Assembly: GCA_903813345.2 (NCBI GenBank)
Contig: CAIIXF020000002.1
Coordinates: 3,574,001-3,638,000, forward strand
DNA: 64,000 nt
DNA from: Owenia fusiformis
Lineage: Eukaryota; Annelida; Polychaeta; Sabellida; Oweniidae
Direction of reading: 5' to 3'
Under the pieces are notes generated by a model that worked only from the letters and a program-made list of their open reading frames with translations, was not told the origin of the DNA and searched no databases. The position numbers and the translations under genes were made by a program. This document shows positions 1 to 35,000 of this stretch, in pieces (within the stretch, counting starts at the first letter, position 1; each line of letters opens with the position of its first letter).

Positions 1-210
1 ATTTTAATATTTTATAACATGTATTATTATAAATTGTATGTATTCATGTTCAACTCATATAAATTGTACACCTTTATGGTTTTTCAAATTTTGATAATGC
101 ACTGATATACCCCCTATGGGTATCTAGTGTGTAAATGTAATACTTAATCATAATGATATTACATGAATAAATAAATAAATAAAAAAACAAAAAAAAGAAA
201 ATAAAAAAAG
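1..210 (+). mobile_element. 3' UTR and A-rich tail of a non-LTR retrotransposon (cut by window edge)
   Basis: These bases match 7464-7674 almost base for base, which is the 3' end of the truncated non-LTR element at 6696-7674. The tail is a run of AAAT units followed by A-rich sequence. The right junction (tail then TTAATACTGG) is identical to the one at 7674/7675, so this is the same insertion copied with the tandem unit, not an independent one. The reverse-transcriptase part would lie left of the window. Confidence 0.8.
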
Positions 211-643
211 TTAATACTGGATTCTGTTGGTGCTGCCATCTTTATATCGGCCCAGAACCTATGGTTACAATTCACTGTGTTAGCGCAGGATCTTGGGTCC
301 TTTATTTAATTCAGGAGCCATGCATATTCCTTATATGCCCTCAATTCAAAATGCAGAAAAATACTAATAATCTAAAAATAATCAACATTTAAGGAACCAC
401 AACACAATGGGCATATTGAAGCCAGTCCGGTAACAAAGAAATTATGGTCCCCCTTTTTAAAGGCCCTTACTGGCCCTGATTGTGTATAAGATAATAAGGG
501 ATAGATTAGCATTTCAGTTTCCGCATGTCCCGAAAAACAACAAGAACAAGGACCAGTAAGTTCTCACCAAGTTTTGGAGGTCATTAAGCACCAGAAGGGT
601 CATCTAAGGACATAATTAAGCAGTGGTTTCAACAAGCCAATAC

Positions 644-1166
644 TTACCTTCTTCTAAGGCCACTGTATCGTGGCCTTCCAGTACAGATATATTTCTGCAT
701 GAACAACTGGTCATGTCGTAATCATAAAATTTGAAATCATATGTCCGCCATTTTTCCACATCACAATTTGAATTGCGAGTTTTGGTCTTATTACCTCACC
801 AAAAATTCCAAAACACACATAAAGTGATCAGTGTATTAGTTCACATCTTCTGGATCGCTAACTTAGAATTTACAGCCAGTTACTAATGTCAGACGTTAAC
901 GACATTTCGTCCAGTTTTCGAACATCGCCATTTTTCTTGGAGCCATTTTGTTTTAATTTTAGACGAAATCCTGATGAAATCATGTAATATCTCATCAAGG
1001 AACCGAGCTGGGTCCGGTTTGGTTAATGATTTATTTATCTGGCGATTTTTAAAATATTCAATAAATTTATGACACCCCGGCATGCTTTTTTCAAATAGAG
1101 TTCACAGTATTCCAGATGCAATCCCCTCTAGCCAAGTATTGGCTAGAGACTCGAGTAAGCCAATAC
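644..1166. other. 523-bp segment present only in unit 1
   Basis: The 10-mer AAGCCAATAC stands at both edges in unit 1 (634-643 and 1157-1166) and once in unit 2 (near 8116). AGCCAATACTT near the left edge has its reverse complement at 1134-1144. Either a small element inserted with a ~10-bp target duplication, or unit 2 lost the segment by recombination between short direct repeats. No gene is seen inside. Confidence 0.5.
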
Positions 1167-1355
1167 CACCCCAACACTGCAAATGATATGCTGAAATGGT
1201 TTAGACAATGCTTTGGTGGTCAGTTCATCAGTTGCAGAACGCAAACCATATGGACAGCTCATTAGCCAGATCTAAATCCCCCAAATTTTTATCTTTGAGG
1301 ATTTCTCAAAGCCAATGTGTATACTGACAGGCCCCTAACAATCTAAGAGCGCAAT

Positions 1356-1822
1356 GGCCAAAATGCCCTAATACGTCACTTCCGCTGAATAGAAAAAAGT
1401 AGTATTCAAAAATAAATGTAGTCCCAACACAATTGTGATCATGACGAGTCAGTAAGCTAGTATGTAGGCACAGTTGTAATCTTTTTGCAATGGCAACATG
1501 CCATTTCTTCTGAAAATGCGTTTATTTGGGTTATCTGAAGGAAAATTTCGAGTCAAGTGGCGTATTAATTTTGCCTTCATTTTTGTGAATTTCAATTTGT
1601 GTCTGCAGAGAGAGGGGGTAGTGTCACAATTGACCAATTATTTCAAAAAGTAGAGATTGGCCCCTATTGAGTTTAGTGTCAAGATGTAGCTTAGACATAG
1701 CTTTAGAACCTCAGATAGGCCAGTGAGGCCACATAAATCCATAACTCGAGATAAAAAGCCAGGCGTTTGCCCTTTTGCCCATTGACTAGTATGGTGACGT
1801 GAATTAGGGCAGTTTTGCCAAT
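1356..1822. other. 467-bp segment present only in unit 1
   Basis: Alignment of units 1 and 2 breaks at CAAT (1352-1355) and resumes at CAAT (1819-1822). Unit 2 reads straight through with a single CAAT. Four bases of microhomology fit a simple deletion in unit 2 better than an insertion. The short ORFs here are not supported as genes. Confidence 0.45.
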
Positions 1823-2477
1823 AACTTCCCACATTAATGTGTAAAGGTCATGGTCATTAACAACTTTGGTCGCAGGATTCGTGTGTGCATAGAGAGAAGT
1901 GCCCACTTTAAGCATGTTTTGTAAAGTACTGTAGTTTTTGACAGAATTAACAGACTATCATCAAACTTTCAGAACACAATTCACATTGAATGAACTAAAT
2001 AATTCTAAAATTTTAAGGCAAAATATGCAAAATTGACCGAGTTATTCAACTTTCTTACGGTCCTGTTTTTTTGGACACCCTGTATTATCATATCTTTTTC
2101 ATATATCTTTATCATGTAGCTGAGGAACAGGCAATTCGATTTTTGATTACTCTCAACTAAGTTTTGAGATATGGTTCTGAAAAATCGATCAACAAAAACT
2201 CCAAATTCAATGTTATTGGTGTTAAAACGACGGGCTTCAATACACAACATAAGGACTTTACAAATATTCCTTTTGAATAACATGTTCTATTGCACATTTA
2301 ACATTTTGTAATTTTAAAGAATTCGATTTATTGACCGAACGTATTTAAGACGGGCTTCATTTAAGGTCATGTAAATCACGAAACGGAATATTGACGAGAC
2401 CTTAGGCCTAATGTAGAGTTTATAAAGACACCGTTCATTGATGTGATATATTTATTGAAACAACTTGGACACGCCAA

Positions 2478-2577
2478 ACCTACGAACGTCAAAAAACTGT
2501 CGTACAGTTTTCTATACGTTGACCAAATTAGCTCATTTGAAGCAAAAAACTAAGGTGGATGTTTTAAAAAACCGGAC
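2478..2577 (+). repeat. Diverged terminal repeat of the GTCACCGTACAG element, directly upstream of GT31 copy 1
   Basis: The order of motifs (ACGTCAAAAAA, GTACAGTTTTCT, ACGTTGACC, then TTTGAAGCAAAAAACTA and TTTTAAAAA) matches the outer end of the element at 20721-23733 in order and spacing, with many substitutions. It ends about 40 bp before the GT31 start codon, so part of the gene's 5' flank or leader descends from a transposon end. Confidence 0.5.
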
Positions 2578-2614
2578 AACTTCGTGCTAACGCATACTTA
2601 ATCATAAAATAAAA

Positions 2615-3586
2615 ATGAGGCTCTGTCAAAGATTAGTGACCGCTACAGTTATGGGTATGTTTGTTTGTATTTTAATAACAAGGGAATTGAAGCATAAGTC
2701 TTCAAAGAATACTAGGAAGATGAGTATTAGATATGATGATAGTTGGTTCAAATCAAGTTACATCATTAACGAGGAAAGTATTTGTCGGGATACTAATGCG
2801 GACATACTATTCTACATCCATACTGCGCCGAATCATAAGAACCACAGGGATATAATACGTTCAACCTGGGGAGGCAAGAAGCAGTATAGGGATTACAAAA
2901 TTACAATGGTGTTCTTATTAGGACATAGCAATGACGATCAAATCAATGAGGGTATACATAATGAAAGCACCATTCACCATGACATCATACAAGGGACCTT
3001 CAGAGACACCTATCTTAATCTTACATATAAGGCTAGGATGGGGCTAAATTGGGTCAATGCCTATTGCTCAAATGCAAAGTTCATTATTAAGACAGATGAT
3101 GATGTATTTGTAAACATTCCGATTCTCATTAAACAACTTGAGGAACTGGAGATAAAGAATGAGACAAAAAACCTATTGATGTGCAGCGTGATATATGAAG
3201 ATAAAGTCAACCGAAATGAACTACATAAAAATTACGTCTCGGAAGATGAGTATGATGTTCATGAACCAGATATATATCCCGATTATTGCCCAGGAATGGC
3301 CTTTGTGCTTTCGAGAAATGCCTTGATGAAGATACACACATTGCTTAACTACACAAGGTTTCTTAAAGTGGATGATGTTTACATAACAGGGATTCTAGCC
3401 AAGATGGCGGGAATAAAGCATAAAGACAGCACCAAATTGACAGGGATTGACGGACTTTGGGGAATCAAGTGGCCATGGGAAGAATATAAGGATTTAGACA
3501 GATCACGCTTGAATCAATACATGTTTATTCTCGTAGAAGGAAAGCCAGAGAGCATAGGTGAAATTTGGGAAAACATGCAATTTTGA
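2615..3586 (+). CDS. Beta-1,3-galactosyltransferase-like glycosyltransferase (GT31), copy 1
   Basis: This intronless gene encodes 323 residues. Its product should be a type II Golgi membrane enzyme that transfers a sugar, probably galactose or N-acetyl-sugar, in beta-1,3 linkage to a glycan. Residues about 7-22 form a single hydrophobic signal anchor after a short basic cytosolic end. Family motifs follow in order: RSTWG (82-86), FLLG (100-103), the metal-binding DDD (161-163) in KTDDDVFVN, YPDYCPG (221-227), and KVDDVYITG (251-259), the counterpart of the usual EDVYVG. N-glycosylation sequons are at 116, 135, 182 and 245. The start is the first ATG after an in-frame TAA at 2588-2590. Length is typical for a compact B3GALT. 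Acceptor and exact donor cannot be told from sequence. An almost identical paralogue is at 9106. Confidence 0.9.
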   Translation: MRLCQRLVTATVMGMFVCILITRELKHKSSKNTRKMSIRYDDSWFKSSYIINEESICRDTNADILFYIHTAPNHKNHRDIIRSTWGGKKQYRDYKITMVFLLGHSNDDQINEGIHNESTIHHDIIQGTFRDTYLNLTYKARMGLNWVNAYCSNAKFIIKTDDDVFVNIPILIKQLEELEIKNETKNLLMCSVIYEDKVNRNELHKNYVSEDEYDVHEPDIYPDYCPGMAFVLSRNALMKIHTLLNYTRFLKVDDVYITGILAKMAGIKHKDSTKLTGIDGLWGIKWPWEEYKDLDRSRLNQYMFILVEGKPESIGEIWENMQF

Positions 3587-4179
3587 TCAATAGAGATTGT
3601 TTGATATCATCTAAATAATTAAGAGGATTACGCACGCAAAACATGGCACGTGATCGATATAGTAGAAAAAACTGGGATCAAGAAAATGACACTCTATTTT
3701 CTCTTAGGTTCCAATACACCATTGGAAAGCCTAAGGTGAGCGTCAATTTTAAGTATCTGACCTCTCGGAGATTTGCTAGTGCAAAGTTGAAAAATGAACC
3801 CATCCATTTGTCTCATTAGTCACGTTACAGTACACAGAGACGATTTTACAAAAGATCGCAGGAAAATCATAGCTGGAGGCCTTACGAAACCAATCACGTC
3901 AGTTGTTTATTACGAAGTTACCATGCTTACGGTGAGATACCTGCCCGCCGCAGTGATATACCACTGCACGGGAGTTCGGAGGCCTTAGCTATATAGTGAT
4001 TTGGATATGTTGCTATAGCAATCGCATTCAGCAGTTTTAGCAATTTCTTTCCATTCACAATGACTCCTACTAATAATAATAACTTAGTTAAACTTTGAGA
4101 AGAAATCTGCTTTTGTTCAATACTTGATCAAATACAAAACATTCAAATGCAAAGAAGCTGTTCCATTGCCTTGAATGTC

Positions 4180-4185
4180 AATAAA
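4180..4185 (+). promoter_or_regulatory. Candidate poly(A) signal AATAAA for GT31 copy 1
   Basis: AATAAA lies about 595 bp after the stop codon and is followed by T/G-rich sequence. The surrounding CAATAAAG (4179-4186) is the intact, single-copy form of the site that is duplicated around the 3.3 kb element in unit 2. Use as a polyadenylation signal is inference. Confidence 0.35.
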
Positions 4186-5004
4186 GGTCAGATGTTTTTT
4201 ATGTCTCTGAGGAACGCTATTACAAACAAATGTGCGATAACAAAAGCTCACTAATGTGACATTGAAAACCAATAACTGTTAAAAATGGCGATTTTACATG
4301 AAATAGTAATTGAAAATAGCTGAAACTAAATTATTTTTTCTCTTTGTTTTATGTATTCTAAAATAAATTGCCTTTATCTAAATTCGGTCAACATACTTTT
4401 TGATCCCTCCGGTTGTAAATAGCTTTGATACCTCGCTAATAAGTTGAGAATTTCGTGAACTCGTTGATGTAACAGGACAACGTACACGCCTTTGAAAACA
4501 TGCCATATCTCGGTAATAAATGGTCGAATCTTTTAACTTTGGTTCTGTTCGGATAGAGAAAATTCATTCAGGGTGTGACGACAGCACGTATGTCACACAA
4601 CCCCAAGCACCTGCAGAGGGTGTCAGATATGTTAAAGTGTCTTTCTAAGACTTAGAAGGAGAAATGTGAGATTTCGAGCCATATGTCTCAAGAAAATGCT
4701 CTTACCTTTCTAGTAGGATGAGTTCAGGTGCCAAAAACAGCTGATCAAAGGATATATATCATTTTCTAATTGAAACTTTTTGTTGAGCCCTGCATTTTTA
4801 ACACTATTTTGACAGGAAGTCATATCCAAAATGAAAACTGAATAAAACAACATTTATCCTAAATGTAGATCAAAATACTTACTCCGACATGCAAAATGTT
4901 ATTATTAATAGTAATGCTGACAATTTTTAAGAAATTTAAGCATGTAAATAAGACTTTTTTCGTCCATGATTATATAGATAAAGAATTTCTCCCTTCAGGA
5001 GCTT

Positions 5005-5085
5005 TGGCAGTTTGGTGTAGTGGTTAGAGCTTTTGGCTCAAACAAAGTTTTATTCTAAAAGATCTGGGTTCAAATCCCTCCGGTG
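5005..5085 (+). repeat. tRNA-like SINE head
   Basis: An A-box-like TGGTGTAGTGGTTAGAGC (5013-5030) and a B-box-like GGTTCAAATCC (within 5066-5078) have tRNA-like order and spacing, and a T-rich tail follows. The anticodon and acceptor stems do not pair, so this is not a working tRNA. It sits in the ~0.9 kb of unit 1 that is absent from unit 2. I read it as a tRNA-derived SINE or tRNA pseudogene. Confidence 0.5.
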
Positions 5086-6695
5086 GAATATGTTTTTATT
5101 CTTTATTTTTGTTTTTTTTCATTTTGATCCACAATATTTCTAAAATAAATTTTTATATATGGCACTTAAACCATATTTAGTATTTCCAAGGGTTTTAATT
5201 TTTAGATGAAATCATAGAAAGTTACTTTAATTGTTTTACACCGTTACACCGCACACAGTAAAGATTTGTTGGACCATTCTCGGATTCGAAAAATAATAGA
5301 TCTACACTGTATTTTGGTAAGTTAAGCTTACAATCTAGACGACAGAATCGCAAAGATAATCATGCAACAAAATAATTTTGGAATGTGTTTTTGATCCTAC
5401 CACCCCTATGAAAAAAATGTAAAATACAGGTAACCGAAAATGAATTATCCGTGGTTATCCATCCTTTGGTTCAGTTTATCAGACCATCGTGTTACAAATC
5501 GTGATAATAGTTGTGATTGAATTAAGATGAGCACCCTGGAAAATTCTGAAAAATCACCGTTTTGCTTGTGAAAATCGACCCGATGACGTTACTCATACAT
5601 TGACAGTAGTCGTGTGGGAAAAGGGACACTTTCCAAGAAAACAATGTGTCCACTCGTCTCCCTCATATATATCTTTTATTGACTCTTTAGATGTCATATC
5701 ATGACATATTAGTCACTAAGGTAGAGCAGTTCTTCCCATTGTCGAGTTGAAGAACTGGTATCTTTATCCTGGCTAGAACCATAGACAATTCTAGCCAGCG
5801 CCAGGCTTTTATCGAGTTAGCAGCACTCTATAACAAAAAAGGGTTTTCGAAATTACCAGCATTACCACTCTTGTGTGAAACTGTGACAATCCACGCGTAA
5901 AAATCGCCACGGTTATAGAATTGAACTCAAAGCAGTAAATTAACCATTTGTATATAAATCACAAATGAATTGGTCTTATTTTAAATGATTATCAATATTC
6001 TTACATCTTAAAGTTAATATTCAGTAATTACGCGTAATTATCCCTTGATACTATACTTCCCGGTGAATAACACCCGGGAATATTTATGATATCGAAAAAT
6101 CGCATTGTCCCGCCCAATCCCGCTCTCGAAAATCGTATTCACCTCCCACACGTCATGCTCTGACACGGAGATAGAACGTCAAAGAAATCTGAGAAATAAG
6201 CATATGCCCTTTGATGAACATTGATCATGTGTATGCATTCGTTAAATGTTTTGCTGTTGATGTGTTTATGTTTAATATACAATGAAATTGTCTGTCCGTT
6301 GATCTGTACAGTACATCCGTCCGTCAATATTGGCCACATAAATTAAAACTGCTATTCATATTAAATCATATCAAAATTCATTTTATGTATACCCAGAGTA
6401 TGTATCTAAGAGTGCCTATATGGTTTGTCATCGCCATTCCCAAGTACACCCTATATCCGCATCCTCCGATCACAGGGCTTCAAAATCCAGAATATATTCT
6501 TTCTTTTTACCGGGGCAAGAAGGAGGTACGGATTCTGAACACCTGCTTAGGAGGATGTATATCCGAGAAATAGCAGATTTTGATGTAAAAATCTTTAAAT
6601 ATTACAACGTGGTTACAATCATAGGCTTAGGTCGATAGAAATAATCTTTAAATAAAGATGGAATGGTAATCGATCTGTGTTTATTTATGAAAAAG

Positions 6696-7674
6696 CTAAA
6701 CTCAATGATCCACAATAGCAGTTAATGATTGATAAAATTACCATTGAACGTGTGGAAAAAAACAAATTTTCTTGGTGTAATAATAGACAATAAACTCAAT
6801 TGGAATGAACATATATCTTATATTATTTCAAAAATATCAAAAACACTAGGTATACTTTATAAAGTGCGTTATAAATTAAATTTGACAGCTTTACTAGATA
6901 TCTATTACTCTCTTATATATTCTCACATTTCATATTGCAATATTATATGGGGAAATGCCAACAAATTCTTATTAGAAAAAATTTATGCAATTCAAAAGAA
7001 ATTCGTTAAATTATCTTTAAAAGATATATATCATGCAAGTTTACCATTATTCAAGCAACTTCATATTTTAACCATATTTGATATTCACAAGTTAGAAAAA
7101 GCAAAATTCATGTTTAACATTGTAAAAGAGCCTGCACTTTTTCCATCCCATCTATTCAAACAGTATTTTAATTTTAAACACCCTCGCCTCACAAGACAAA
7201 TACGACATATAATTCCATGTAGATTTAAATCAAACTTAACAAAGAAATCAGTTCAATACTCTGGATCAATGATATGGAATAAATTGCCAACTTCCCTTCA
7301 ATCTCTACCCTCTCTACACTCCTTTAAATATAATTACAAAAATATGGATAAATTGTTATTGAGCTATAAGCTGTGAGCATGTAATGTTATTTTTCCACAT
7401 TGTGTTGTATCCATAATGTTTATAATTTCACTCATGGATTTATCATGCAGGCAGTAATTGTATATTTTAATATTTTATAACATGTATTATTATAAATTGT
7501 ATGTATTCATGTTCAACTCATATAAATTGTACACCTTTATGGTTTTTCAAATTTTGATAATGCACTGATATACCCCCTATGGGTATCTAGTGTGTAAATG
7601 TAATACTTAATCATAATGATATTACATGAATAAATAAATAAATAAAAAAACAAAAAAAAAGAAAATAAAAAAAG
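6696..7674 (+). mobile_element. 5'-truncated non-LTR retrotransposon with empty site in unit 3
   Basis: The filled site reads TATGAAAAAG, then the element, then TTAATACTGG. The matching point at 15981-16000 reads TATGAAAAAGTTAATGCTGG with no insert, which fixes the ends. The element is about 979 bp: the C-terminal part of a reverse transcriptase ORF, about 290 bp of 3' UTR, then AAAT repeats and an A-rich tail. Because the flank is A-rich the target duplication cannot be separated from the tail; GAAAAAG fits. Confidence 0.88.
6729..7376 (+). pseudogene. Reverse transcriptase C-terminal fragment (non-LTR retrotransposon)
   Basis: The 215-residue open frame covers the end of the RT domain and the region after it. 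FLGVIIDNKLNW (residues 14-25) matches the conserved LGV-ID stretch of jockey/CR1-like RTs, and YCNIIWG lies about 55 residues later. The polymerase YxDD box, endonuclease and 5' UTR are missing, so it cannot move by itself. Just upstream the family-like sequence continues in another frame. A 7-A run near 6757-6763, where six would keep the frame, looks like a 1-bp insertion. Clade assignment (CR1/L2 versus jockey) is uncertain. Confidence 0.8.
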
Positions 7675-8968
7675 TTAATACTGGATTCTGTTGGTGCTGC
7701 CATCTTTATATCGGCCCAGAACCTATGGTTACAATTCACTGTGTTAGCGCAGGATCTTGGGTCCTTTATTTAATTCAGGAGCCATGCATATTCCTTATAT
7801 GCCCTCAATTCAAAATGCAGAAAAATACTAATAATCTAAAAATAATCAACATTTAAGGAACCACAACACAATGGGCATATTGAAGCCAGTCCGGTAACAA
7901 AGAAATTATGGTCCCCCGGGGATTATGGTCCCCCTTTTTAAAGGCCCTTACTGGCCCTGATTGTGTATAAGATAATAAGGGATAGATTAGCATTTCAGTT
8001 TCCGCATGTCCCGAAAAACAACAAGAACAAGGACCAGTAAGTTCTCACCAAGTTTTGGAGGTCATTAAGCACCAGAAGGGTCATCTAAGGACATAATTAA
8101 GCAGTGGTTTCAACAAGCCAATACCACCCCAACACTGCAAATGATATGCTGAAATGGTTTAGACAATGCTTTGGTGGTCAGTTCATCAGTTGCAGAACGC
8201 AAACCATATGGACAGCTCATTAGCCAGATCTAAATCCCCCAAATTTTTATCTTTGAGGATTTCTCAAAGCCAATGTGTATACTGACAGGCCCCTAACAAT
8301 CTAAGAGCGCAATAACTTCCCACATTAATGTGTAAAGGTCATGGTCATTAACAACTTTGGTCGCAGGATTCGTGTGTGCATAGAGAGAAGTGCCCACTTT
8401 AAGCATGTTTTGTAAAGTACTGTAGTTTTTGACAGAATTAACAGACTATCATCAAACTTTCAGAACACAATTCACATTGAATGAACTAAATAATTCTAAA
8501 ATTTTAAGGCAAAATATGCAAAATTGACCGAGTTATTCAACTTTCTTACGGTCCTGTTTTTTTGGACACCCTGTATTATCATATCTTTTTCATATATCTT
8601 TATCATGTAGCTGAGGAACAGGCAATTCGATTTTTGATTACTCTCAACTAAGTTTTGAGATATGGTTCTGAAAAATCGATCAACAAAAACTCCAAATTCA
8701 ATGTTATTGGTGTTAAAACGACGGGCTTCAATACACAACATAAGGACTTTACAAATATTCCTTTTGAATAACATGTTCTATTGCACATTTAACATTTTGT
8801 AATTTTGAAGAATTGAATTTATTGATCGAATGTATTTAAGACGGGCTTCATTTAAGGTCATGTAAATCACGAAACGGAATATTGACGAGACCTTAGGCCT
8901 AATGTAGAGTTTATAAAGACACCGTTCATTGATGTGATATATTTATTGAAACAACTTGGACACGCCAA

Positions 8969-9068
8969 ACCTACGAACGTCAAAAAACTGTCGTACAGTT
9001 TTCTATACGTTGACCAAATTAGCTCATTTGAAGCAAAAAACTAAGGTGGATGTTTTAAAAAACCGGAC
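8969..9068 (+). repeat. Diverged terminal repeat upstream of GT31 copy 2
   Basis: This is the unit 2 equivalent of 2478-2577, with the same resemblance to the end of the element at 20721-23733. It shows that the transposon relic was already next to the gene before the unit was duplicated. Confidence 0.5.
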
Positions 9069-9105
9069 AACTTCGTGCTAACGCATACTTAATCATAAAA
9101 TAAAA

Positions 9106-10077
9106 ATGAGGCTCTGTCAAAGATTAGTGACCGCTACAGTTATGGGTATGTTTGTTTGTATTTTAATAACAAGGGAATTGAAGCATAAGTCTTCAAAGAA
9201 TACTAGGAAGATGAGTATTAGATATGATGATAGTTGGTTCAAATCAAGTTACATCATTAACGAGGAAAGTATTTGTCGGGATACTAATGCGGACATACTA
9301 TTCTACATCCATACTGCGCCGAATCATAAGAACCACAGGGATATAATACGTTCAACCTGGGGAGGCAAGAAGCAGTATAGGGATTACAAAATTACAATGG
9401 TGTTCTTATTAGGACATAGCAATGACGATCAAATCAATGAGGGTATACATAATGAAAGCACCATTCACCATGACATCATACAAGGGACCTTCAGAGACAC
9501 CTATCTTAATCTTACATATAAGGCTAGGATGGGGCTAAATTGGGTCAATGCCTATTGCTCAAATGCAAAGTTCATTATTAAGACAGATGATGATGTATTT
9601 GTAAACATTCCGATTCTCATTAAACAACTTGAGGAACTGGAGATAAAGAATGAGACAAAAAACCTATTGATGTGCAGGGTGATATATGGAGACAGAGTCA
9701 TCCGAAATGAACTACATAAAAATTACGTCTCGGAAGATGAGTATGATGTTCATGAACCAGATATATATCCCGATTTTTGCCCAGGAATGGCCTTTGTGCT
9801 TTCGAGAAATGCCTTGATGAGGATACACACATTGCTTAACTACACAAGGTTTCTTAAAGTGGATGATGTTTATATAACAGGGATTCTAGCCAAAAAGGCG
9901 GGAATAAAGCATAAAGACAGCACCAAATTGACAGGGATTGACGGACTTTGGGGAATCAAGTTGCCATGGGAAGAATATAAGGATTTAGACAGATCACGCT
10001 TGAATCAATACATGTTTATTCTCGTAGAAGGAAAGCCAGAGAGCATAGGTGAAATTTGGGAAAACATGCAATTTTGA
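9106..10077 (+). CDS. Beta-1,3-galactosyltransferase-like glycosyltransferase (GT31), copy 2
   Basis: This is an intact 323-residue paralogue of 2615-3586 with the same signal anchor, RSTWG, DDD (161-163), DFCPG and KVDDVYITG motifs. By eye, codons 1-190 are identical to copy 1. All eight amino-acid differences lie in residues 191-286: S191R, E195G, K197R, N199I, Y224F, K239R, M264K, W286L. I count three synonymous changes in the same stretch. None touches the metal-binding DDD, but Y224F is inside the conserved YPxYCxG box and W286L is in a conserved-looking Trp-Pro-Trp stretch. Both copies could be active. A shift in acceptor use is possible but unproven. Confidence 0.9.
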   Translation: MRLCQRLVTATVMGMFVCILITRELKHKSSKNTRKMSIRYDDSWFKSSYIINEESICRDTNADILFYIHTAPNHKNHRDIIRSTWGGKKQYRDYKITMVFLLGHSNDDQINEGIHNESTIHHDIIQGTFRDTYLNLTYKARMGLNWVNAYCSNAKFIIKTDDDVFVNIPILIKQLEELEIKNETKNLLMCRVIYGDRVIRNELHKNYVSEDEYDVHEPDIYPDFCPGMAFVLSRNALMRIHTLLNYTRFLKVDDVYITGILAKKAGIKHKDSTKLTGIDGLWGIKLPWEEYKDLDRSRLNQYMFILVEGKPESIGEIWENMQF

Positions 10078-11999
10078 TTAATAGAGATTGCTTGATATCA
10101 TCTAAATAATTAAGAGGACTAGGCATGCAAAACATGGCACGTGATATAGCAGAAAAAACTGGGATCAAGAAAATGACGCTATTTGCTCTTAGGTTCCAAT
10201 ACACCATTGGAAAGCCTAAGGTCAGCGTCAACTTTAAGGATCTGACCTCTCAGATATTTGCTAGTGCAAAGTTGAAAAATGAACCCATTCATTTGTCTCA
10301 TTAGTCACGTTACAGTACACAGAGACGATTTTACAAAAGATCGTAGGAAAATCATAGCTGGAGGCCTTATTCACAATTATAGCTATATCAGGAGGAGTGA
10401 GTAGCTCCCATAATTCTTTCATATTCTATCGTATTCGGGGATTCCCCATTACATCATCTCTTGCATCATCTCCAATCAAATTGCAGGATTCGATCACGTG
10501 AACAATCATGGGCACATGCTCTCTCAGTGCTGCGCATGCGCAGAGTTAAATTTTATATCGTGAGAATGGCGTTTACATCAGTTCAACATCGTCATTTCAA
10601 ACCTACGGTAATATTATTGAAGTTACTCGATCCATACTTGTAGAGAATACTCATAAAACTACAGTGAACATTTGGAGATCCATTTCAACGGAAAATCGAG
10701 GCCTGTTTATAAAATTTGTTTTCGAACGTGCTAATATGATAGGGCATCTTTGGGAATTCTCCCCCCCCTGAGCTATATAGTGATTTGGACATGGTGCTAT
10801 AGCATTCAGCAGTTTTAGCAATTTCTTTCCATTCACAATTCACTTTGAGAAGAAATCTGCTTTTGTTCAATACTTGATCAAATACAAAACATTCAAATGC
10901 AAAGAAGCTTGCTTGAATGTCAATAAAGGGGGGGGGGTGTATAGAGGGTCTTGGAAATGCATATACAATATTTTTCAGCTCTCTTATACCATATACAATA
11001 TTTTTTCACCCCTTTTATACCATATACAATATTTTTCACAGCTCTTATACCATATACGATATTTTAGGTGAAATACAATATACAATAATTTTGAAACTGC
11101 TTTTGATTAAAGTTTGGATATTTATAAGGAAATAATATTAGGAGAGAATCCATGTACTAAAGTAAATGTATTATTATAAGGGAAATAGACTCCAGACTGT
11201 TCAGAAAAGCTGTGACCACATTTTATTTTCAGGTAAACAAGTTGATTTAAAACACATTTATGATATAAGATTCATGACTTATCTTTAGTGATTTCACAAC
11301 CTACTTTGACCAAAAAACTAACTTTAACATTTCTGCAATTTGCTAAAGCCATTAGCCCATTACGAGTGTAAAAGTACCATAAAGATATTCAAAATTAGCA
11401 CAAAACCTGCATCATTGAAATGGGTGGAACTCAGTGTTCCTCTTTCTTATGACCTACTTTCCCATGACTTATTTTAATGTCAATGGAATCCTTCATAGTG
11501 AGCCAGGGAATAAAACCCTTGAAACATAATTGATGCAAAATTGAGAATGTGGAATAAAAGATTCATCATGTGTTCTATGAAAATAAAGTTTGCTGAGGAA
11601 AATATGTATCAGATAGGTAATGAAGATTCACAATGCACAATAATTTTGTAAAGCAGTTACCTGAAAATATTAAGTATTGACAATAGTTTCAGAAATAAAG
11701 GACTTCACAAACTTCCATGTAGATAATTCATTTTTGATTGGACTCCAGTCTGGAAATTAGAGTTTGAAATAAAGGCAAGATGAGACTTGATTGTTTAAAC
11801 ATTTGAAACAAGAGACACATCAGGGTTTCAGATAAGGCAGCCTTAAAGACAGTATAAGTTAAACAAAGGTGTGTCAAAATTAAGTAAATTTCCATAAAGG
11901 TCAAACCACATGTTTCACGAATGATTTCAATGCAAAGATGTATTGATGAGAATGAAAACTACTCTATGTAACTGGAAGTAACTTTCTTTTAAAGGACCA

Positions 12000-12657
12000 C
12001 AGACGGTATCCCAACAGATTTCAGTCATATATTGGATTTTGGCTATTTTCTGAGGACTTGAACAGGTGCATATGTAAGGCCAATGCATTAACTCCAGGAC
12101 AAGCAATCATAGAGATTATAAAATAATTTGGACTTTATGTCAGGGAAGGTGCAAATTTGCACCCCATCAACATGTTTTTTCTGTAATGTTGTCCTGATTT
12201 CCAGCCCTTTCCACACCTGTTTTTCAATGTTTGTTGCATCGATCACTCTGTTGCGTTTTAAATGAAAATATGATTCATGCAGGGATTTTAAAGATATCAA
12301 TTTGAATGACCAAAATTTAGCTGAAAACAATGGATCACATGAGTTTTCCCTATGGGAAAATAACATGGGAAATACATGTACTGTTTTCCACTTCATCCCA
12401 AATAAATCATATTTTAGAGGTTAACTGTGTCTCAAAGGGCAACATATTGGTGCATCAAACATTGAAAAAACATATGTGGAAATTTAAGGGCTGAAAATCA
12501 GGACAACATTTCAGAAAAACCTTCCCTGTCTCAAAGTCCAAATTATTGTATTACCTCGATGAGTGCTTGATCTGGTGTTAATGCATTGGCTTAACATATG
12601 CACCTGTTCAAATTCCCAATAAATAGCCGAAATCCAACATATGACAGTTTGAAGACC
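12000..12657. repeat. Inverted repeat inside the 3.3 kb element, first hairpin
   Basis: About 12002-12300 is the diverged reverse complement of 12400-12657. For example GAACAGGTGCATATG (near 12060) pairs with CATATGCACCTGTTC (near 12596). Arms are about 280 bp around a centre near 12330. ORFs read here are products of the palindrome. Confidence 0.7.
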
Positions 12658-12842
12658 AAATAAAAACCTTTTGCTATATTATGCTATATTAGCATTGTGA
12701 TGCTTGTATTAAAACATGCGCTGTATGAACACTTTATACTCAAATATTTTAATGATTTATCCCACATACCCAGAAACACGAGTAGCCATAATGACCATAT
12801 TTTTCATCAAAATTAAGATGAGTCAATGACTTTTGGCAGTCT

Positions 12843-13866
12843 CACACCCGGTGATCTGATGAAATGAACGGAGGGGGGAGTAGCTGATTTTCAAATGTTG
12901 AAGATTTATTTTTTCAAGAAAAAGTTTACAATTGAATGGCTAAATGAATAGATGCAGTGCACAGGGAAATATGTTAGGTCTTCTTGGATTTTTTTTGAAC
13001 TGATGGAGTTCTAAGATAAAAGATTTATTAAAGAAGGCGCAACGTCGCCAACGTGCAAATGCCAATGTTTTTGCTATAAATCAAGCAACAATGGTCTGCA
13101 CAACCTGTAATCAATATATATAAGCGACGTTTTTATCACTAAATTCTTTGCCGGTTTTTTAAAAATAATTTTCCAAATGATAGATAAAAAATAATCGAAA
13201 ATAATTAAAATTGAACGGAGGGGGGGGGAGTGAACGGAGGGGGGGGGTTGAGTAATCTGTCTATAAGGTGGAAGAAATTTCCACAAATTCGTGTACTGGA
13301 AAAATGAACTCACTTACTCAGTAACTTGATGTTACAACTCTGAAAAGTGAAAAATGGGGACATATGGAGTTAATGGAAGTTTCCATATGTCTTATAGACA
13401 CATTACTCCCCCCCCCTCCGTTCAATTTTAATAACTTTCGATTACTTTTTATATAACGTATGTGTTTTACAAAACCAATGATCACAATAGTTTTGTGATA
13501 ATTACTTTACTTACAAGTATTTATTACAGGTCGTGTAGACCCCTGTTGGTTGATTTATATGATATTCTGTGAAGAATTGAGATTAAATATGGATGGATGG
13601 GTGGGTTGATTTATAGCAAAAACATTGGCATTTGCACGTTGGCGACGCTGCACTTTTTTAATGGATCTTTTATTTTAGAACTCCACAGTTCAAAAAAAAT
13701 CCAAGAAGACGTAACATATTCCCCCATCCACTGCGTCTATTCATTTAGCCATTCAATTGTAAACTTTCTCTTGAAAAAATAAATCTTCAAGATTTGTTGA
13801 ATTTTCTACCGAAAATCAGCTAGATCTACTCCCCCTCCATTCATTTCTTCTGATCATCGGGCGTGA
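12843..13866. repeat. Inverted repeat inside the 3.3 kb element, second hairpin
   Basis: About 12843-13285 is the reverse complement of 13375-13866 with moderate divergence. Landmarks are GAACGGAGGGGGG against CCCCCCTCCGTTC, and AACGTGCAAATGCCAATGTTTT (13049 onward) against its complement near 13616. The centre is near 13330. It may be a foldback element that moved into the larger one. Confidence 0.72.
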
Positions 13867-15990
13867 TTCTTATTTGAGACTATATTTAACACCTCCTGTG
13901 AAAAATTGAATGAGAAGGGCACAAAACTCTTAGTTTGAGAAGGATTTTCTCTAAACTTACAGTATTGATTGACCTGGAATGTGGAACCAATTAGAGAGAC
14001 TACTTTTTCATGTGTTTCCAACACGGTTACAGTAAGAGAGTTGGTACAATGGGAAACTTTAGGGTACAATTTCTTCATAATTGGCCTTCTTTGATTCTAG
14101 ATACTATATACCATATATTTTCTATTATACCATATACCATATTTTTTACACCTCTTATACCATATACGATAAATTTTGCCCCCTCTTATACAATATACAA
14201 TAAATTTTCAGCCTCTTATACGATATACAATATCTCTATACACCCCCCCCCCCCCCCAATAAAGCTCAGATGTTTTATATGTCTCTGAGGAAAGCTAGCA
14301 CAAATAAATAGGCGATAACAAAAGCTCATTCATGTGACATTGAAAACCAATAACTGTTAAAAATGGCGATTTTTCATGAAATTGAAAATAACTGAAACTA
14401 AATTAATTTTTCTCGTTGTTTTATGTATTCGAAAATAAATTGCCTTTATCTAAATTCGGTCAACATACTTTTTGATCCTTCCGGTTGTAAATAGCTTTGA
14501 TACCTCGCTAATAAGTTGAGAATTGCGTGAACTCGTTGATGTAACAGGACAAAACGCCTTTGAAAACATGTCATAACTCGGTAATAAATGGTCGAATATT
14601 GAGCAAGTTATGGCTATTTTAAATTCAAATAAAACCGTTAACCCGTACCGGTCCAGCTTTTGACCCGTACCGGTCAATTTTCGTTAGCTGCGTATACCAA
14701 GGGTGATATAAGTGCATGTAGAATCTATTCTGTGAAAATCGACATGGTCGTTATTTCGCACCAATACGTCATTAGGGGATATTGAGAAAATGAATTATCC
14801 GACCGTGGTTATCCAGCCTTTGGTTCAGTTTATCAGACCATCGTGTTACAAATCGTGATAATAGTTGTGATTGAATTAAGATGAGCACCCTGAAAAATTC
14901 TGAAAAATCACCGTTTTGCTTGTGAAAATCGACCCGATGACGTTACTCATACATTGACAGTAGTCGTGTGGGAAAAGGGACACTTCCAAGAAAACAATGT
15001 GTCCACTCGTCTCCCTCATAACAAAAAAAGGTTTTCGAAATTACCAGCCATTACCACTGTGACAATCCACGCGTAAAAATCGCCACGGTTATATTAAATT
15101 AACCATTTGTATATAAATCACAAATGAATTGGTCTTATTTTAAATGATTATCAATATTCTTACATCTTAAAGTTATTTAGTAATTACGCGTAATTATCCC
15201 TTGATACTATACTTCCCGGTGAATAACACCCGGGAATATTTTTGATATCGAAAAAATCGCATTGTCCCGCCCAATCCCGCTCTTGAAAATCGCATTCATC
15301 TCCCAATCCCGCCCACGAATGGTATTCACCTCCCTGTCGAAGTTTTGCCAAACAAAGCTTCCTTTTAGGTTTACTTGGGTCGATGTAATGATGCTCTTAT
15401 GTGAGAAACATTTTCCAAATAAAATTGAAAATAGAGATTTTGAAGTATGAGACGGCAACTTATATTTTCATCATCATTCTCTGACAAGGAGATAGAGTCA
15501 ACGTCAGAGAAATCTGAGAAATAAGCATATGCCCTTTGATGAACATTGATCATGTGTATGCATTCGTTAAATGTTTTGCTGTTGATGTGTTTATGTTTAA
15601 TATACAATGAAATTGTCTGTCCGTTGATCTGTACAGTACATCCGTCCGTCAATATTGGCCACATAAATTAAAACTGCTATTCATATTAAATCATATCCAA
15701 ATTCATTTTATGTATATATCCAGAGTATGTATAAGAGTGCCTATTTGATTTGTCATCGCCATTCCCAAGTACACCCTATATCCACATCCTCCGATCACAG
15801 TTTACCGGGGGAAGAAGGACGTACGGATTCTGGACACCTGCTTAGGAGGATGTATATCCGAGAAATAGCAGATTTTGACGTAAAAATCGTTAAATATTAC
15901 AACGTGGTTACAATCATAGGCTGAGGTCGATAGAAATAATCTTTAAATAAAGATGGAATGGTAATCGATCTGTGTTTATTTATGAAAAAG

Positions 15991-16328
15991 TTAATGCTGG
16001 ATTCTGTTGGTACTGCCATCTTTATATCGGCCCAGAACCTATGGTTACAATTCACTTTGTTAGCACAGGATCTTGGGTCCTTTATTTAATTCAGCCATGC
16101 ATATTCCTTATATGCCCTCAATTCAAGCAGAAAAATACTAATAATCAAAAATTATCAACATTTAAGGAACCACAACAAAATGGGCATACTGAAGCCAGTC
16201 CGGTAACAAAGAAATTATGGTCCCCCAGGGATTATGGTCCCCCTTTTTAAAGGCCCTTACTGGCCCTGATTGTGTATAAGATAATAAGGGATAGATTAGC
16301 ATTTCAGTTTCCGCATGTCCCGAAAAAC
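15991..16328. repeat. Tandem segmental duplication, truncated unit 3
   Basis: This matches 211-540 of unit 1 and the start of unit 2, then stops after CCCGAAAAACA where units 1 and 2 continue with ACAAGAAC. It is joined directly to the end of unit 2 with no retroelement between them, so it preserves the state before that insertion. Confidence 0.8.
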
Positions 16329-18634
16329 ACTTTAGCGATTGACTGATGGGGCAGTAACTATACGTTGGCGATAATGCTGAAATGGATTTCTTTGAAAACT
16401 AGCTATATAGTTTTTATGTAATAAATTGAAGTGAAGAACATCTACTGGATGAGCGTGGTGTAAAAGCGGTTTTGAAAAGTAGCAAATTTCTCTTCATATA
16501 GCTTATTTGTGGTTTATTATTATACATTGATTCTGAAATCATTGGTGTCTAGTTTTTCAGCGTTTTGGGAATATTCAGATTTATACCCCTCTGGTGGAAT
16601 TTTAAGGGGGTACTTGGAAAACCATATATCATTCCTAGAATATAGAGCCAATCATCTTGATTTTTCCAGGTAATCATGTACTTATCATGTTCTACCATTA
16701 TGACAAGTTTCATTAAAATTGATCAACTGGTTGCTATGGAAACGGAGATCATATGTTAAAAAGTACACATTTTCGTCAAAATGTACGATACCCCATGAGA
16801 CAAAACACATATTATTTTCATGAAATTGGAAGGAATCACCATGAAACCATTTTAGAAAACTTATTCAAAGTATATTTGATAATATTAAATCAACTGCTGT
16901 TTTATCTTATCCACACAGTGGAATCTATTGCTGATGATTATATGACAATGCAAGTAAATTTAGAAAGGGGATGTGGCACTTTTCCAAAGAATTCTTTATT
17001 TGTGTTCAACTTTTTGAAGAAAATAAGTAACCATTTGTCCTGAAATTAACAGATATTATTCACATCATTATGTTTGACTATCATGGAAAATTTCATCAGT
17101 GTTGGATTACTGGTTACTATGGTAAACAGATTTATACCCCATTGGTATGATTTTAAGGGGGTACAATGAAAGCCATCTATAATTCCTAGAATATTCAGCC
17201 ATTCATCTTGATATTTACAGGTAATCATCTACTTATAATGCACTACCACTATGACAAGTTTCATTAATGTTTAACACTTGGTAGCTATGGTAACAGAAAT
17301 AATTTATTAAAAAATACACATTAAGGAGATACTATGTATAATTCCTAGAATATTCAATTAATCATCTTTATATTTATGGGTAATCATCTGCTTATCACGT
17401 CTTACTAGTATGACAAGTGCCATCAATGTTGGTCAATTGGTTGCTATGGTAACAGAAATTATTTCTTAATAATTGCACATCAAGGGGGTACTATGTATAA
17501 TTCCCAGAATATTTAATCAATCATCTTGATATTTACAGGTAATCATCTGCTTATCATGTCCTACCAGCATGACAAGTGCCATCAATGTTGGTCAATTGGT
17601 TGCTCTGGTAATAGAAATAATTTGTTAAAAAGTGCACATTAAAGGGGTACTATGAAAGCCATGTATAATTCCTAGAATATTCAATCAATCATCTCGATAT
17701 TTATGGGTAATCATTCGTTTACATGTCCTACCGGTATAACAAGTGCCTTCAATGTTGGTAATTTGGTTGCTATGGTAACAGAAATCATTTGTTAAAAGAG
17801 TACACATTTTCGTAAAAATCTAAGACTCATGCAACCTTTGAGATTAAGCAGATAATATGTTCATCATTTTGGGAGAAATAAGCATGGAAACATTTCATAA
17901 AACTGATCACATCTCACCAATCACAACAGTGGACGCTTTATTGCCATCACTGGTCATCAACGGATATGTTTTACACTCAGAGTAATACATGCTGTTGTTC
18001 TCAATTTTTTTATGTCTGCTGTTTTTTTCAAGTGTTCATTGTTTTTAGAATTCATTAAGAAGCATTTCCAGTATTTTTAATTGGGTGTAATCGTTGTATA
18101 TATCTCTTAGTTTGTTTATTACAAGTGACGTGGTAACTTGTTGATGGCAAAAGAGAGCAAAATTGGCTTGACCAACCCATTCCACCTGATGATCTCATAG
18201 ACATATAGTCATATAAAGATTGCAACGGATGCTTAGACATTGAAAGATCTATGAATGAGGATTTTGATGCAAATGATATAAAAGATGACTAAGTGAGATC
18301 AGCTCATAATTTACTATGTCCCTACGCATAATGTGACAGCCGCATTCTGCATAGTTTTATTATCATAAGCAAATACAATACATCAAATGGCCCAGATGAA
18401 ATATCCATTGATTAAATATTATCAGACATACTCAAAATAGGTAAAATGTTTTCATGCTAATTCCTCCCAATTTGATGAAGATTTTCAATGTCTTAGGGTG
18501 TGTCTTAAAATTTTACGAAATATGTACTTTTTTAACAAATAGATTTCTACCCACATTTGACCCACATTGATGAAACTTGTCATCATGGTAGGACATGATA
18601 AGTAGTAGATTGTATGTAATTAGAAAGATTTCGC

Positions 18635-19480
18635 ACGGCGTGAATTTACAACTTATAACGTATACTTATACTTATAAGCAAACTTACAAGGTGTTTCATA
18701 ATATGGGGTTTTCGTCAGGAAAGATCTTCTCGGACTGTAATAAATAAAGGTCAAAGGGATGCCTTTGTTCTTTCATGAATTGTAGCATGTTTAGTTGATC
18801 CAAATGTGCTTGTCTAGAATAAAATAGGCTCATATATAGTACGTATGTTATAGACCTATCTCTTCTCAAATTGCCTTTTTAAGATGCTCGTTATGAAACA
18901 CCCTGTATGTCATTTGTTGAGCTACTGAATGGGTCGTTTCCAGAAATTGCTAGAACCTTCTGGTTTGATTGGTGTTTCAAATTGATGGTTAACGTATTTG
19001 ATTGGATACTGTTCCTACTCAGCAAATTATTCTTAAAAAATGCTTACGGTCAATTGTTCCACACACATGCAGGTAAAGCTTTATACGGAGATCCAACTCT
19101 ATACGTTTATCATCTCGTATATATACCGTTTTGTAAGTTCATTGAACTTATACTGATCATGAAAACTTTGAAATAATCAACTTGTTTATGTAATGACTCG
19201 CTTTAAAGGATCATGACTCACTTTAAAGGATCGTGTTTATAATACACTACAACTACTAGGACACGGAAGCAAGCATTTAACTATAATGTGCATAATCTAC
19301 ACGTGCAGATGACAGTGCATTCACAGTCTCTAGTTGATGGAGCTTTTCTATATCGGGAATAGTTATGTTCCATTAAGTACAATTTGAAATTGATTTTAGT
19401 AAATATAATAGTTCGACACGACCCTTTAAAGTATATGTATACGTATAAGTTGTACTTTCACGTATGTGCGAAATCTCTCT
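18635..19480. mobile_element. ~0.85 kb TIR element inserted in the right arm of the foldback
   Basis: AGATTTCGCAC...GTGAA...TACAACTTAT..CGTATAC on the left (near 18628-18670) is mirrored by GTATACGTATAAGTTGTACTTTCACGTATGTGCGAAATCT on the right (near 19437-19477, shown here only as a motif order). Foldback-arm sequence resumes on both sides. I could not define a target duplication. A plus-strand ORF of 89 codons (18907-19176) with hydrophobic stretches lies inside; I do not recognise it. Confidence 0.6.
18687..18905. mobile_element. 219-bp MITE, mariner-like (TA target)
   Basis: The inverted ends are CAAGGTGTTTCATAA and TTATGAAACACCCTG, one mismatch, flanked by TA on both sides (18685-18686 and 18906-18907). 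Tip sequence CAGGGTGTTTC and a TA duplication are usual for Tc1/mariner MITEs. It sits within the 18635-19480 element, so three layers of insertion are stacked here. Confidence 0.72.
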
Positions 19481-20879
19481 ATTATCATAATGATTATTTT
19501 GATATTATAGTACGCCCTAATGTGTACTTTTTAACAAATGATTTCTGCTACCATAGCAACCATTTCCCCGCATTTATGAACTTTGTCATAGTGTAAGAAC
19601 ATGGTGAGTAGATGACTACCTGTCAATAACAAGATGATTGGTTAGATATTCTAGGAATTATATATGGCTTTCATAGTACCTCCCTTAATGTGTACTTTTG
19701 AAAAAATGATTTATGTTTCCATAGCAACCAATTGATACACATTGATGAAAATTGTCATGCTTGTAAGACATGATATGTAGACGATTACCTGTAAATATCA
19801 AGATGATTGGCTGTATATTCTAGGAATTATAGATGGCTTTCATTGTACCCCCATTAAAAATCAAACCAAGGGGTATAAATCTGCATACTATAGTAACCAG
19901 TGAACCAACACTGATGAAACTTTCCATGATAGTCAAACATAATGATGTGAATAATATCTGTAAATAACAGGACAATTGGTTATTTATTTTCTTCAAAACT
20001 TTGGACACAAGTTAAGAATTCTTTGGAAAAGTGCCACGCCCCCTTTCTAAATTAATTTGCATTGCCATATAATCATGAGCAATAAATTTCACTGTGTGGA
20101 TAAGATAAAACAGCACTTGATTTAATATTATCAAACATACTCTGAATAAGTTTTCTAAAATATTTTTATTGTGTTTCTTTCCAATTTCATTAAAATAATA
20201 TGTGTTTTGTCTCATGGGGTGTCTTACATTTTGACGAAATTGTGTACTTTTTGACATATGATCTCCGTTTCCATAGCAACCAGGTGACTAACTTTGATGA
20301 AACTTATTACTTTTGTAGGACATGATAAGTACATGATTACCTGTAAATATCAAAATGATTGGTTGTAAATTCTAGGAATTTTTCATGGCCTTTCTAGTAC
20401 CCCCCTCAAAATCAAACAAGGGTGGTATAAATCTGAATATTTCCTAAACGCTGAAAAACTAGACACCAGTATTTTCAGAATCAATGTAGAATCATAAACC
20501 ACAAATTACTGACATAAAGAGAAATTTGCTGTTTTTCAAAACCACTTTTACACCACGCTCATCCAGTAATCCATTTTGAAACGAAGACGGGTGTTGTGTT
20601 GCGTTGCATAATGCACCTAGCATTATAAAATGGCCAATGCAAATTTAGTCTGACTTTGGATTATCTTGTGCCAAGAACATCTTTACGTTCCTGCACAGTC
20701 ACGCCTAACCATCGCGTAAGCAGGCGTCACCGTACAGCGTCAAAAAATAAAGTAGTACAGTTTTCTGTACGGTGACGAAAATTAACTGAGTTGAAGCAAA
20801 AACTATAATGAGGGTTTTAAAAAGATTAATTAGATGAAAATAAATACGATTTCGGGTGTAATCATACTTTTCAGAGAAA

Positions 20880-21440
20880 AAAAAACAGGAGTTTTTTTTA
20901 AAAAAACAGGAGAATCCAGGAGATATTTTGCAAAAAACAGGAGAAAAACAGGAGACTTTTACTGAAAAAAACAGGAGAAAACAGGAGACTTCTTTTAAAA
21001 AACAGGAGAAAACAGGAGGTTTCTTTTAGAAAACAAGTTAACATCTAAAAAACAGGAGATTTTCAGTCTAAACAGGAGATTTTCTTTAAAAACAGGAGAA
21101 AACAGGAGGTTTCTTTTAGAAAACAAGTTACCATCTAAAAAGCAGGAGAAAACAAGAGACTTCCAGTCTAAACAGGAGATTTTCTTTAAAAAACAGGAGA
21201 AAACAGGAGACTTCTTTTAAAAAACAGGAGAAAACAGGAGGTTTCTTTTAGAAAATAAGTTACCATCTAAAAAACAGGAGAAAACAGGAGATTTTCAGTC
21301 TAAACAGGAGATTTTCTTTAAAAACAGGAGAAAACAATTTATTTTAAAAGCATGAGAAAACAGATTATCTTTAAAAACAGGAGAAAGCAGAAAACTTCAA
21401 AGAAAACACATGTTCTTATAAAAAAGACTCTATTTATGGC
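20880..21440. repeat. Degenerate AAAACAGGAGA array
   Basis: AAACAGGAG recurs dozens of times at irregular 8-30 bp spacing, with a higher-order unit of roughly 100-120 bp (CAAGTTA.CATCTAAAAAACAGGAG...). It is purine-rich on the plus strand with no open frame. A related TCGGGAG-rich stretch (22201-22410) lies at the other end of the same insertion. Confidence 0.75.
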
Positions 21441-27640: not shown

Positions 27641-27750
27641 TTTAAAAATAGGTAAGAAACACATATTTGTAAAGAGAATCCATATTTAATGGTTACACTG
27701 TGATAATATATAGTAGGTCGTTCTCTGACGTCCGCGTAACATAGTATAAA
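27572..27750 (+). promoter_or_regulatory. Histone H1 promoter: AC boxes and TATA box
   Basis: TATAAA is at 27745-27750, 77 bp before the start codon. The H1-type AC box AAACACA occurs at 27657-27663 (about 85 bp upstream of TATA, close to its usual place) and again at 27572-27578. In metazoan H1 genes this box takes part in S-phase expression. No CCAAT box was found between them. Confidence 0.6.
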
Positions 27751-27826
27751 GCGTGAACATGAACTGAGGAAAACATTCATTTTTAAATTTCAACGTAAAC
27801 CACACAGCAATCGCAAACCTCTCAAT

Positions 27827-28363
27827 ATGTCTGTATCACCAGCAAAGAAGAAAGCCAGTGCTAAGAAACCAGCGGAGCACCCTAAATACATCGAGATGAT
27901 AACACAAGCTATCATGGCACTGAAGGAACGTACTGGATCATCCCGTCAAGCCATCCTTAAGTACATCAAGGAAAACTTCAAAGTCGGTGACAATGTCGAT
28001 GTGCACGTTAAAATGGCTCTTAAACGGGGAGTAGCATCGGGAGCCCTCGCCCAACCCAAGGGGACTGGAGCATCCGGTAGCTTCAAAGCTGTCAAAAAAG
28101 TAGCGACACCAAAGACACCAGTCAAGAAGACTGCAGCAAAAAAACCTGCCAAGAAGCCAGTCGCTAAGAAAACACCAGCTAAAAAAGCTAAGAAACCAGC
28201 AGCAAAGAAACCCGCCACTAAAAAATTCACACCAAAGAAACCAGTAGCAAAGAAATTGGCAGCAAAGAAACCAGCAGCTAAGAAACCCACAGCAAACATG
28301 GCAAAGAAACCAGCCAAGAAACCCGCTGCCAAGAAGGCCGCCAAGAAGCCAGCAAAGAAATGA
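27827..28363 (+). CDS. Linker histone H1 (replication-dependent type)
   Basis: The intronless gene encodes 178 residues. Linker histones bind DNA at the nucleosome entry/exit site and compact chromatin. A short Lys-rich N-terminus (1-16) precedes the H15 globular domain (about 17-88), which begins HPKYIEMITQAI, contains GSSRQAILKYI and ends KGTGASGSFK. The rest (about 89-178) is a Lys/Ala/Pro tail built from AKKPA-like repeats with several TPKK or TPVKK phosphorylation-type sites. The start is the only ATG before the domain and follows a TATA box at a proper distance. A histone mRNA stem-loop follows 32 bp after the stop, so the message is the non-polyadenylated S-phase kind. No other histone gene lies nearby, so this one is solitary within the window. 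The long minus-strand frame here is a shadow of the repetitive tail. Confidence 0.96.
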   Translation: MSVSPAKKKASAKKPAEHPKYIEMITQAIMALKERTGSSRQAILKYIKENFKVGDNVDVHVKMALKRGVASGALAQPKGTGASGSFKAVKKVATPKTPVKKTAAKKPAKKPVAKKTPAKKAKKPAAKKPATKKFTPKKPVAKKLAAKKPAAKKPTANMAKKPAKKPAAKKAAKKPAKK

Positions 28364-34928: not shown

Positions 34929-35000
34929 AGGTTCTACCGAGATTTGAACTCGGATCGCAGGATTCAGAGTCCTGAGTGCTAACCATTACACCATAGAACC
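34929..35000 (-). tRNA. tRNA-Gln (CTG anticodon)
   Basis: On the minus strand the 72-nt cloverleaf is complete. The acceptor stem GGTTCTA pairs with TAGAACC, the D arm contains TGGTGTAATGGTTAGCA (A box), the anticodon stem AGGACT/ATCCT closes a CTCTGAA-type loop giving CTG, and the T arm contains GAGTTCAAATCTC (B box). It closely matches the eukaryotic nuclear tRNA-Gln layout. A TTTT run 7-10 nt downstream on its strand (34918-34921) would stop RNA polymerase III. There is no intron, and CCA is not encoded, as expected. Confidence 0.96.

Follow-up and report, generated by a model that had tools for sequence, protein, structure and literature searches.

A mosaic GT31 glycosyltransferase gene between its two probable parents in a tandem array of Owenia fusiformis

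An assembly of the annelid Owenia fusiformis contains an array of three intact single-exon GT31 genes (U0, U1 and U2) followed by a right-hand stub, in which the middle gene, U1, is a mosaic of the other two. The left part of U1 is like U2 and its right part like U0, with a single switch between them inside the coding sequence, directly past the DDD motif. From this arrangement, we infer that U1 was made by an unequal crossover between U0 and U2 within the GT31 coding sequence, a reading to which we assign a probability of roughly three in four (about 0.77). Hybrid gene birth by unequal crossing-over is a kind of event that is already known, and it is unusually clear here. Literature searches of open-licence papers found no paper on this GT31 array among those listed. 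The window, i.e. the whole stretch of DNA that was analyzed, spans 64,000 nucleotides (C2:3574001-3638000), and the genome searched comprises 498 Mb in 525 contigs. Positions given without a contig are those of the window, with negative numbers lying to its left. The features of the array are:

-5944..-4838: insertion private to the left half of U0, 1.1 kb, with ATAAG flanks
C2:3569731-3570714: U0 GT31 gene, 327 aa
-774..204 (about C2:3573227-3574204), + strand: LINE copy 1, between U0 and U1; the part in the window, 1..204, is its 3′ end
644..1156, + strand: insertion A, 513 bp, present in U1 and absent from U2, with 10-bp flanking repeats AAGCCAATAC
1356..1818, + strand: insertion B, 463 bp, present in U1 and absent from U2, with CAAT on its flanks
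2615..3586, + strand: U1 GT31 gene, chimeric, single exon, 323 aa; U2-like over codons 1 to about 174 and U0-like from about codon 191
3135..3186, + strand: proposed crossover interval, 52 bp, identical in U0, U1 and U2
4636..5226, + strand: insertion C, 591 bp, at a TTAA site, present in U1 and absent from U0
6690..7668, + strand: LINE copy 2, between U1 and U2, with the insertion point and 5′ truncation of copy 1
8022..8577, + strand: relic M of a repeated element, at the original junction of U0 and U2
9106..10077, + strand: U2 GT31 gene, 323 aa, the probable supplier of the left half of U1
10929..14256, + strand: 3.3 kb element, in U2 only of the three units, with G-run and C-run ends and CAATAAAG on both flanks
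15960..16010, + strand: LINE-free site at the U2/stub boundary, with the empty site at about 15984/15985
15985..16329, + strand: stub that closes the array on the right, with homology to 205-539 and 7669-8020

The first-pass annotation had described tandem GT31 repeats made up of unit 1 (here U1), unit 2 (U2) and a stub. Self-comparison recovers this layout, with matching unit 1/unit 2 blocks at 1-643/7464-8124, 1157-1355/8115-8313 and 1819-3884/8310-10369, and with shorter homologous blocks past 3884/10369 that reach 15994. The units do differ by discrete insertions or deletions, as had been stated: between units 1 and 2, insertions A and B are in unit 1 only and the 3.3 kb element is in unit 2 only. 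The sequence to the left of position 1, suggested as a place to look for more units, holds one more complete unit, U0, within the 20 kb upstream of the window.

The reading frames of U0, U1 and U2 are all open end to end, and score 177.7, 178.6 (E = 1.6e-52) and 179.7 bits, respectively, against the Galactosyl_T model (PF01762; curated cut-off 23). All three contain KTDDDVFVN, in which the DDD is presumably the DxD-type metal motif of GT31. Judged by the PF01762 domain and the kept DDD motif, the array genes appear akin to the animal GT31 beta-1,3-glycosyltransferases (B3GALT5, B3GNT2), and among solved structures, the best sequence match to U1 is B3GALT5 (5.5e-29). U1 is probably a working enzyme. 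Among the matches listed for U1 (n = 48; 40 of 5,054 candidates scored), no genic match other than U0 and U2 is near-identical, and the genic match that follows them is a paralogue on C1 (C1:20294115-20295028, L003) at 83% identity.

The mosaic structure of U1 is seen in a three-way alignment of the units. Across the open reading frame, exactly one copy is odd at 26 sites; U0 is the odd copy at each of the first 15, U2 at each of the last 11, and U1 at none (0/26). When labels are shuffled over these 26 sites, such an order has a chance of 2.6e-7. The last U0-odd site (3134) and the first U2-odd site (3187) flank the switch, and indels on either side group in the same way: U1 goes with U2 in a 12-bp indel to the left, and with U0 in a 4-bp and a 2-bp indel to the right. 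The alignment of units 1 and 2 that had been proposed as a measure of their divergence gives near-identical left parts, with all 8 amino-acid changes between the two proteins lying on the right side. The C1 paralogue served as the outgroup for polarizing these sites (at its dS of about 0.37, single polarized sites can be wrong). On the left, 6 of the 15 sites are derived and common to U1 and U2, 7 are derived in U0 and 2 are ambiguous, with two of the polarized sites (codons 67 and 68) adjoining alignment gaps; on the right, 6 of the 11 are derived and common to U0 and U1, 3 are derived in U2 and 2 are ambiguous. We take the N-terminus of GT31 proteins to be a membrane anchor, the donor-side half to be N-terminal and the acceptor-side half to be C-terminal. 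Read in this way, the sequence of U1 would encode the membrane anchor and donor-side half of U2 joined to the acceptor-side half of U0.

The unit boundaries were described earlier as carrying a retroelement at two places and lacking it at the third, and this is what we find: a LINE fragment lies at the U0/U1 and U1/U2 boundaries, while the U2/stub boundary has an empty site and thereby keeps the older, LINE-free state that had been proposed for it. The fragment has a target repeat (short, A-rich, about AAAAAG, of uncertain length), a 3′ A-rich tail and an empty site. A Pfam search of the array fragment matched no family. A longer relative on C5 contains RVT_1 (5.3e-34) and Exo_endo_phos (6.1e-8) in one 1,031-aa frame, and the array copy matches the C-terminal end of this relative with 95% identity over 203 aligned positions. 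By these features, the boundary element is classed as a non-LTR retrotransposon fragment. Since the insertion point and truncation are the same at two copied junctions and the stub is without the LINE, a single insertion that followed the first duplication and was later copied by the crossover is the most likely history of the element. Two independent LINE insertions were considered and rejected, as point, truncation and sequence agree.

We propose the following order of events. An older tandem duplication would have resulted in two GT31 units, U0 and U2, which would then have diverged by about 3% and gained different insertions, including the 5′-truncated LINE at their common boundary. More recently, the U2 copy on one chromatid would have mispaired with the U0 copy on another, followed by a crossover within 3135-3186. 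The product would have retained U0 and U2 and gained a middle unit, U1, that takes its upstream region, membrane anchor and N-terminal half from U2, and its C-terminal half and 3′ flank from U0. The crossover would also have duplicated the LINE-bearing junction, so that a single U0/U2 exchange would leave a LINE at two junctions and none at the third. Subsequently, insertions A and B, and possibly C, would have entered U1, while the private elements (1.1 kb in the left of U0 and 3.3 kb in the right of U2) may have entered at any time after the first duplication.

A crossover of U2 with U0 predicts that the stretch running from the switch position in U0, over the junction, to the switch position in U2 is present in two copies, and this is the case. 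The parental junction, including the LINE, lies on both sides of the hybrid U1, and the two copied segments (-3737..3134 and 3135..9625) differ at 9 of 5,878 aligned bases, which bears out the earlier view of a recent tandem amplification. They are further separated by six indels (595, 523, 467, 17, 4 and 1 bases, flanking repeats included), three of which are insertions of 0.5 kb. Between U0 and U2, 112 differences are counted over 3,470 aligned bases (about 3.2%), with a dS of 0.050, a dN of 0.022 and a dN/dS of 0.44. Measured by base differences, the split between U0 and U2 would thus be around twenty times as old as the crossover, provided that these differences have not been reset by conversion.

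Of the nine base differences that separate the copied segments, five are packed into 25 bases (2316-2340), where U1 is odd at three sites (U0 = U2) and U2 at two (U0 = U1). This patch does not follow from a single switch, and is possibly a short conversion or clustered mutation. Furthermore, three insertions of about 0.5 kb per 9 base differences is a high ratio compared with U0 versus U2, which have roughly 9 large indels per 109 differences (a rough hand tally; the later count was 112). The Fisher p-value for this comparison is 0.08, or 0.03 if the 5-site cluster is counted once, and the high ratio hints at gene conversion, a transposon burst or an allelic origin.

The relative timeline that had been drawn from transposon presence and absence is kept in part. 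A recent amplification, and a LINE that inserted once and was then copied, remain in place; the pairing of units 1 and 2 and the order given to the 3.3 kb element do not. This element, which was said to have arrived after the split of units 1 and 2, is a real insertion, and it sits in the half of U2 from which U1 would have inherited nothing. Dating it by its absence from U1 fails because the right half of U1 appears to come from U0; all that the absence implies is an insertion later than the older split of U0 and U2, and it gives no order relative to the birth of U1. Among the matches listed, its best relative lies on C3 and shows 8 differences over 3,284 aligned positions (5 across 2,634 and 3 across 650, plus gaps, with about 40 bases between the blocks unaligned). 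The 3.3 kb element is thus young too, yet this does not place it before or after the crossover.

Among the smaller insertions in U1, A and B have clean empty sites and near-identical copies elsewhere in the genome; unless they reflect losses, they arrived after the birth of U1. Each monomer in a sample of a C8 tandem array (L008; period 1,328 bp; 3.4 monomers, 99.8-99.9% alike) contains a piece to which insertion B is about 99% identical, and 25 among the 40 matches listed for insertion B lie at C8:34.746-34.789 Mb (C8:34746458-34788860); either a transposon-like element was taken into the satellite, or the reverse. Insertion C has at least 36 other copies at 94-98% among the matches listed. 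Elements using TTAA can leave without a trace, and for this reason the absence of C from U0 may be a loss rather than a non-insertion. A tRNA-like stretch lies near 5006-5090 within this TTAA-flanked insertion, with what we take to be an A-box and a B-box, and ARAGORN called no tRNA there.

Relic M is also found in U1, where it is split by A and B, and has at least 38 other copies at 83-92% among the matches listed. M starts at the point beyond which the junction is no longer homologous to the right stub, as if the first duplication broke at the start of M, or M landed there. M was not found by blastn in -12000..-4300 or 16000..21000, and a Pfam search on one read-through frame matched no family; its residues look to us like a piece of a mariner-type transposase. 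Directly to the right of the array lies an inverted repeat of about 1.05 kb at 85% (16443-17494 and 19507-20568), which holds internal repeat units of 159-168 bp. The other features called around the array are:

L002:3265-3633, - strand: frame carrying the final part of an Ets domain (2.9e-4, under the curated cut-off), upstream of the array
27740-28360: linker histone H1, one open frame (PF00538, 5e-31)
34929-35000, - strand: tRNA-Gln (ctg), the only tRNA called by ARAGORN in the window

The rival that survives best is a false duplication in the assembly, where the animal would have U0 and U2 only, and two haplotypes would have been chained in tandem, or an error made at the near-identical genes. 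The base differences of about 0.15% and the presence or absence of insertions could indeed be allelic, and false duplications are described as widespread and as going with heterozygosity (PMC9516828). However, there is no N base, and thus no gap of N, in the window or in the 20 kb upstream, and the join connects homologous positions and preserves the frame; random contig ends would not produce such a join. A second copy of the locus is absent from the matches listed (n = 48; 40 of 5,054 candidates scored), a point that weighs little. We therefore consider a false duplication unlikely, and infer that the array is real in the animal. The published Owenia fusiformis assembly report gives 505.8 Mb, 12 chromosome-scale scaffolds, PacBio reads with an N50 above 25 kb and purged haplotigs (PMC9977687); if this is the same assembly, its PacBio reads could span the array.

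Less probable still is that the three units are all long-standing, and that two long gene-conversion tracts made U1 U2-like on the left and U0-like on the right. While the group of small differences at 2316-2340, the unusual number of insertions relative to base differences and the possible recombination in another GT31 cluster on C11 would fit such a history, it calls for two or more events, each several kb long, whose ends fall within the same 52 bp and which also bring the LINE along, where one crossover suffices. Finally, the earlier proposal that units 1 and 2 are sisters from a plain whole-unit duplication, ordered by their transposons, agrees with their almost identical left parts but is rejected as next to impossible, because the three-way alignment and the sites in the reading frame contradict it: beyond 3187, unit 1 goes with U0 instead of unit 2, six derived states there are common to U0 and U1, and the LINE-bearing junction is common to both sides of U1.

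A search with the GT31 model PF01762 gives 83 matches in the genome, with every one of the 102 first-look candidates scored. Four other GT31 clusters (on C11, C4, C8 and C3) were compared with three members each, of which one on C3 (L020) has a short longest frame of 236 aa; left out were a C4 match (17245257), a match (20409078) and a fragment (20463873) near the C8 cluster, and a C3 match (28494991). A cluster on C6 has two copies only. Within the C11 cluster (L015, L016 and L017), similarity changes along the gene, and L017 has 70 odd sites in the first gene quarter versus 11, 2 and 5 in the remaining quarters; it may be another recombinant GT31 gene, or show fast change of the N-terminal part. 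In the C4, C8 and C3 clusters, comparison by gene quarters revealed no sharp switch.

Crossing-over between U0 and U2, as favored here, has known counterparts. In hemoglobin duplications of the anti-Lepore type, unequal crossover inside paralogues results in three genes, with a hybrid in the middle between both parents. We compared U1 with this pattern and found the same composition, as the middle copy has the left of the downstream gene and the right of the upstream gene. Unlike in the hemoglobin case, the genes here are GT31 genes, the LINE at the junction was copied too, and insertions followed afterwards. A second likeness is with Sdic of Drosophila melanogaster, a young tandem array prone to non-allelic homologous recombination, with transposon insertions that vary between versions (PMC7475035). 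Sdic has population data and widespread gene conversion (PMC7475035), whereas the GT31 array is known from one assembly and has one sharp switch.

For the reconstruction of such arrays, transposon presence and absence can mislead on the timeline when a unit is a recombinant, and the parent of each unit half is to be settled before transposons are used for ordering. A wider and rather doubtful reading is that unequal crossing-over among GT31 genes recurs in this genome and makes new enzymes, with one paralogue supplying the upstream region, the anchor and the donor-side half and a second one the acceptor-side half, and that U1 is such a gene shortly after birth, having its own specificity or expression. 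If the array is real in the animal, U1 would be a chimeric glycosyltransferase gene near birth, with both parents adjoining and the crossover placed within 52 bp.
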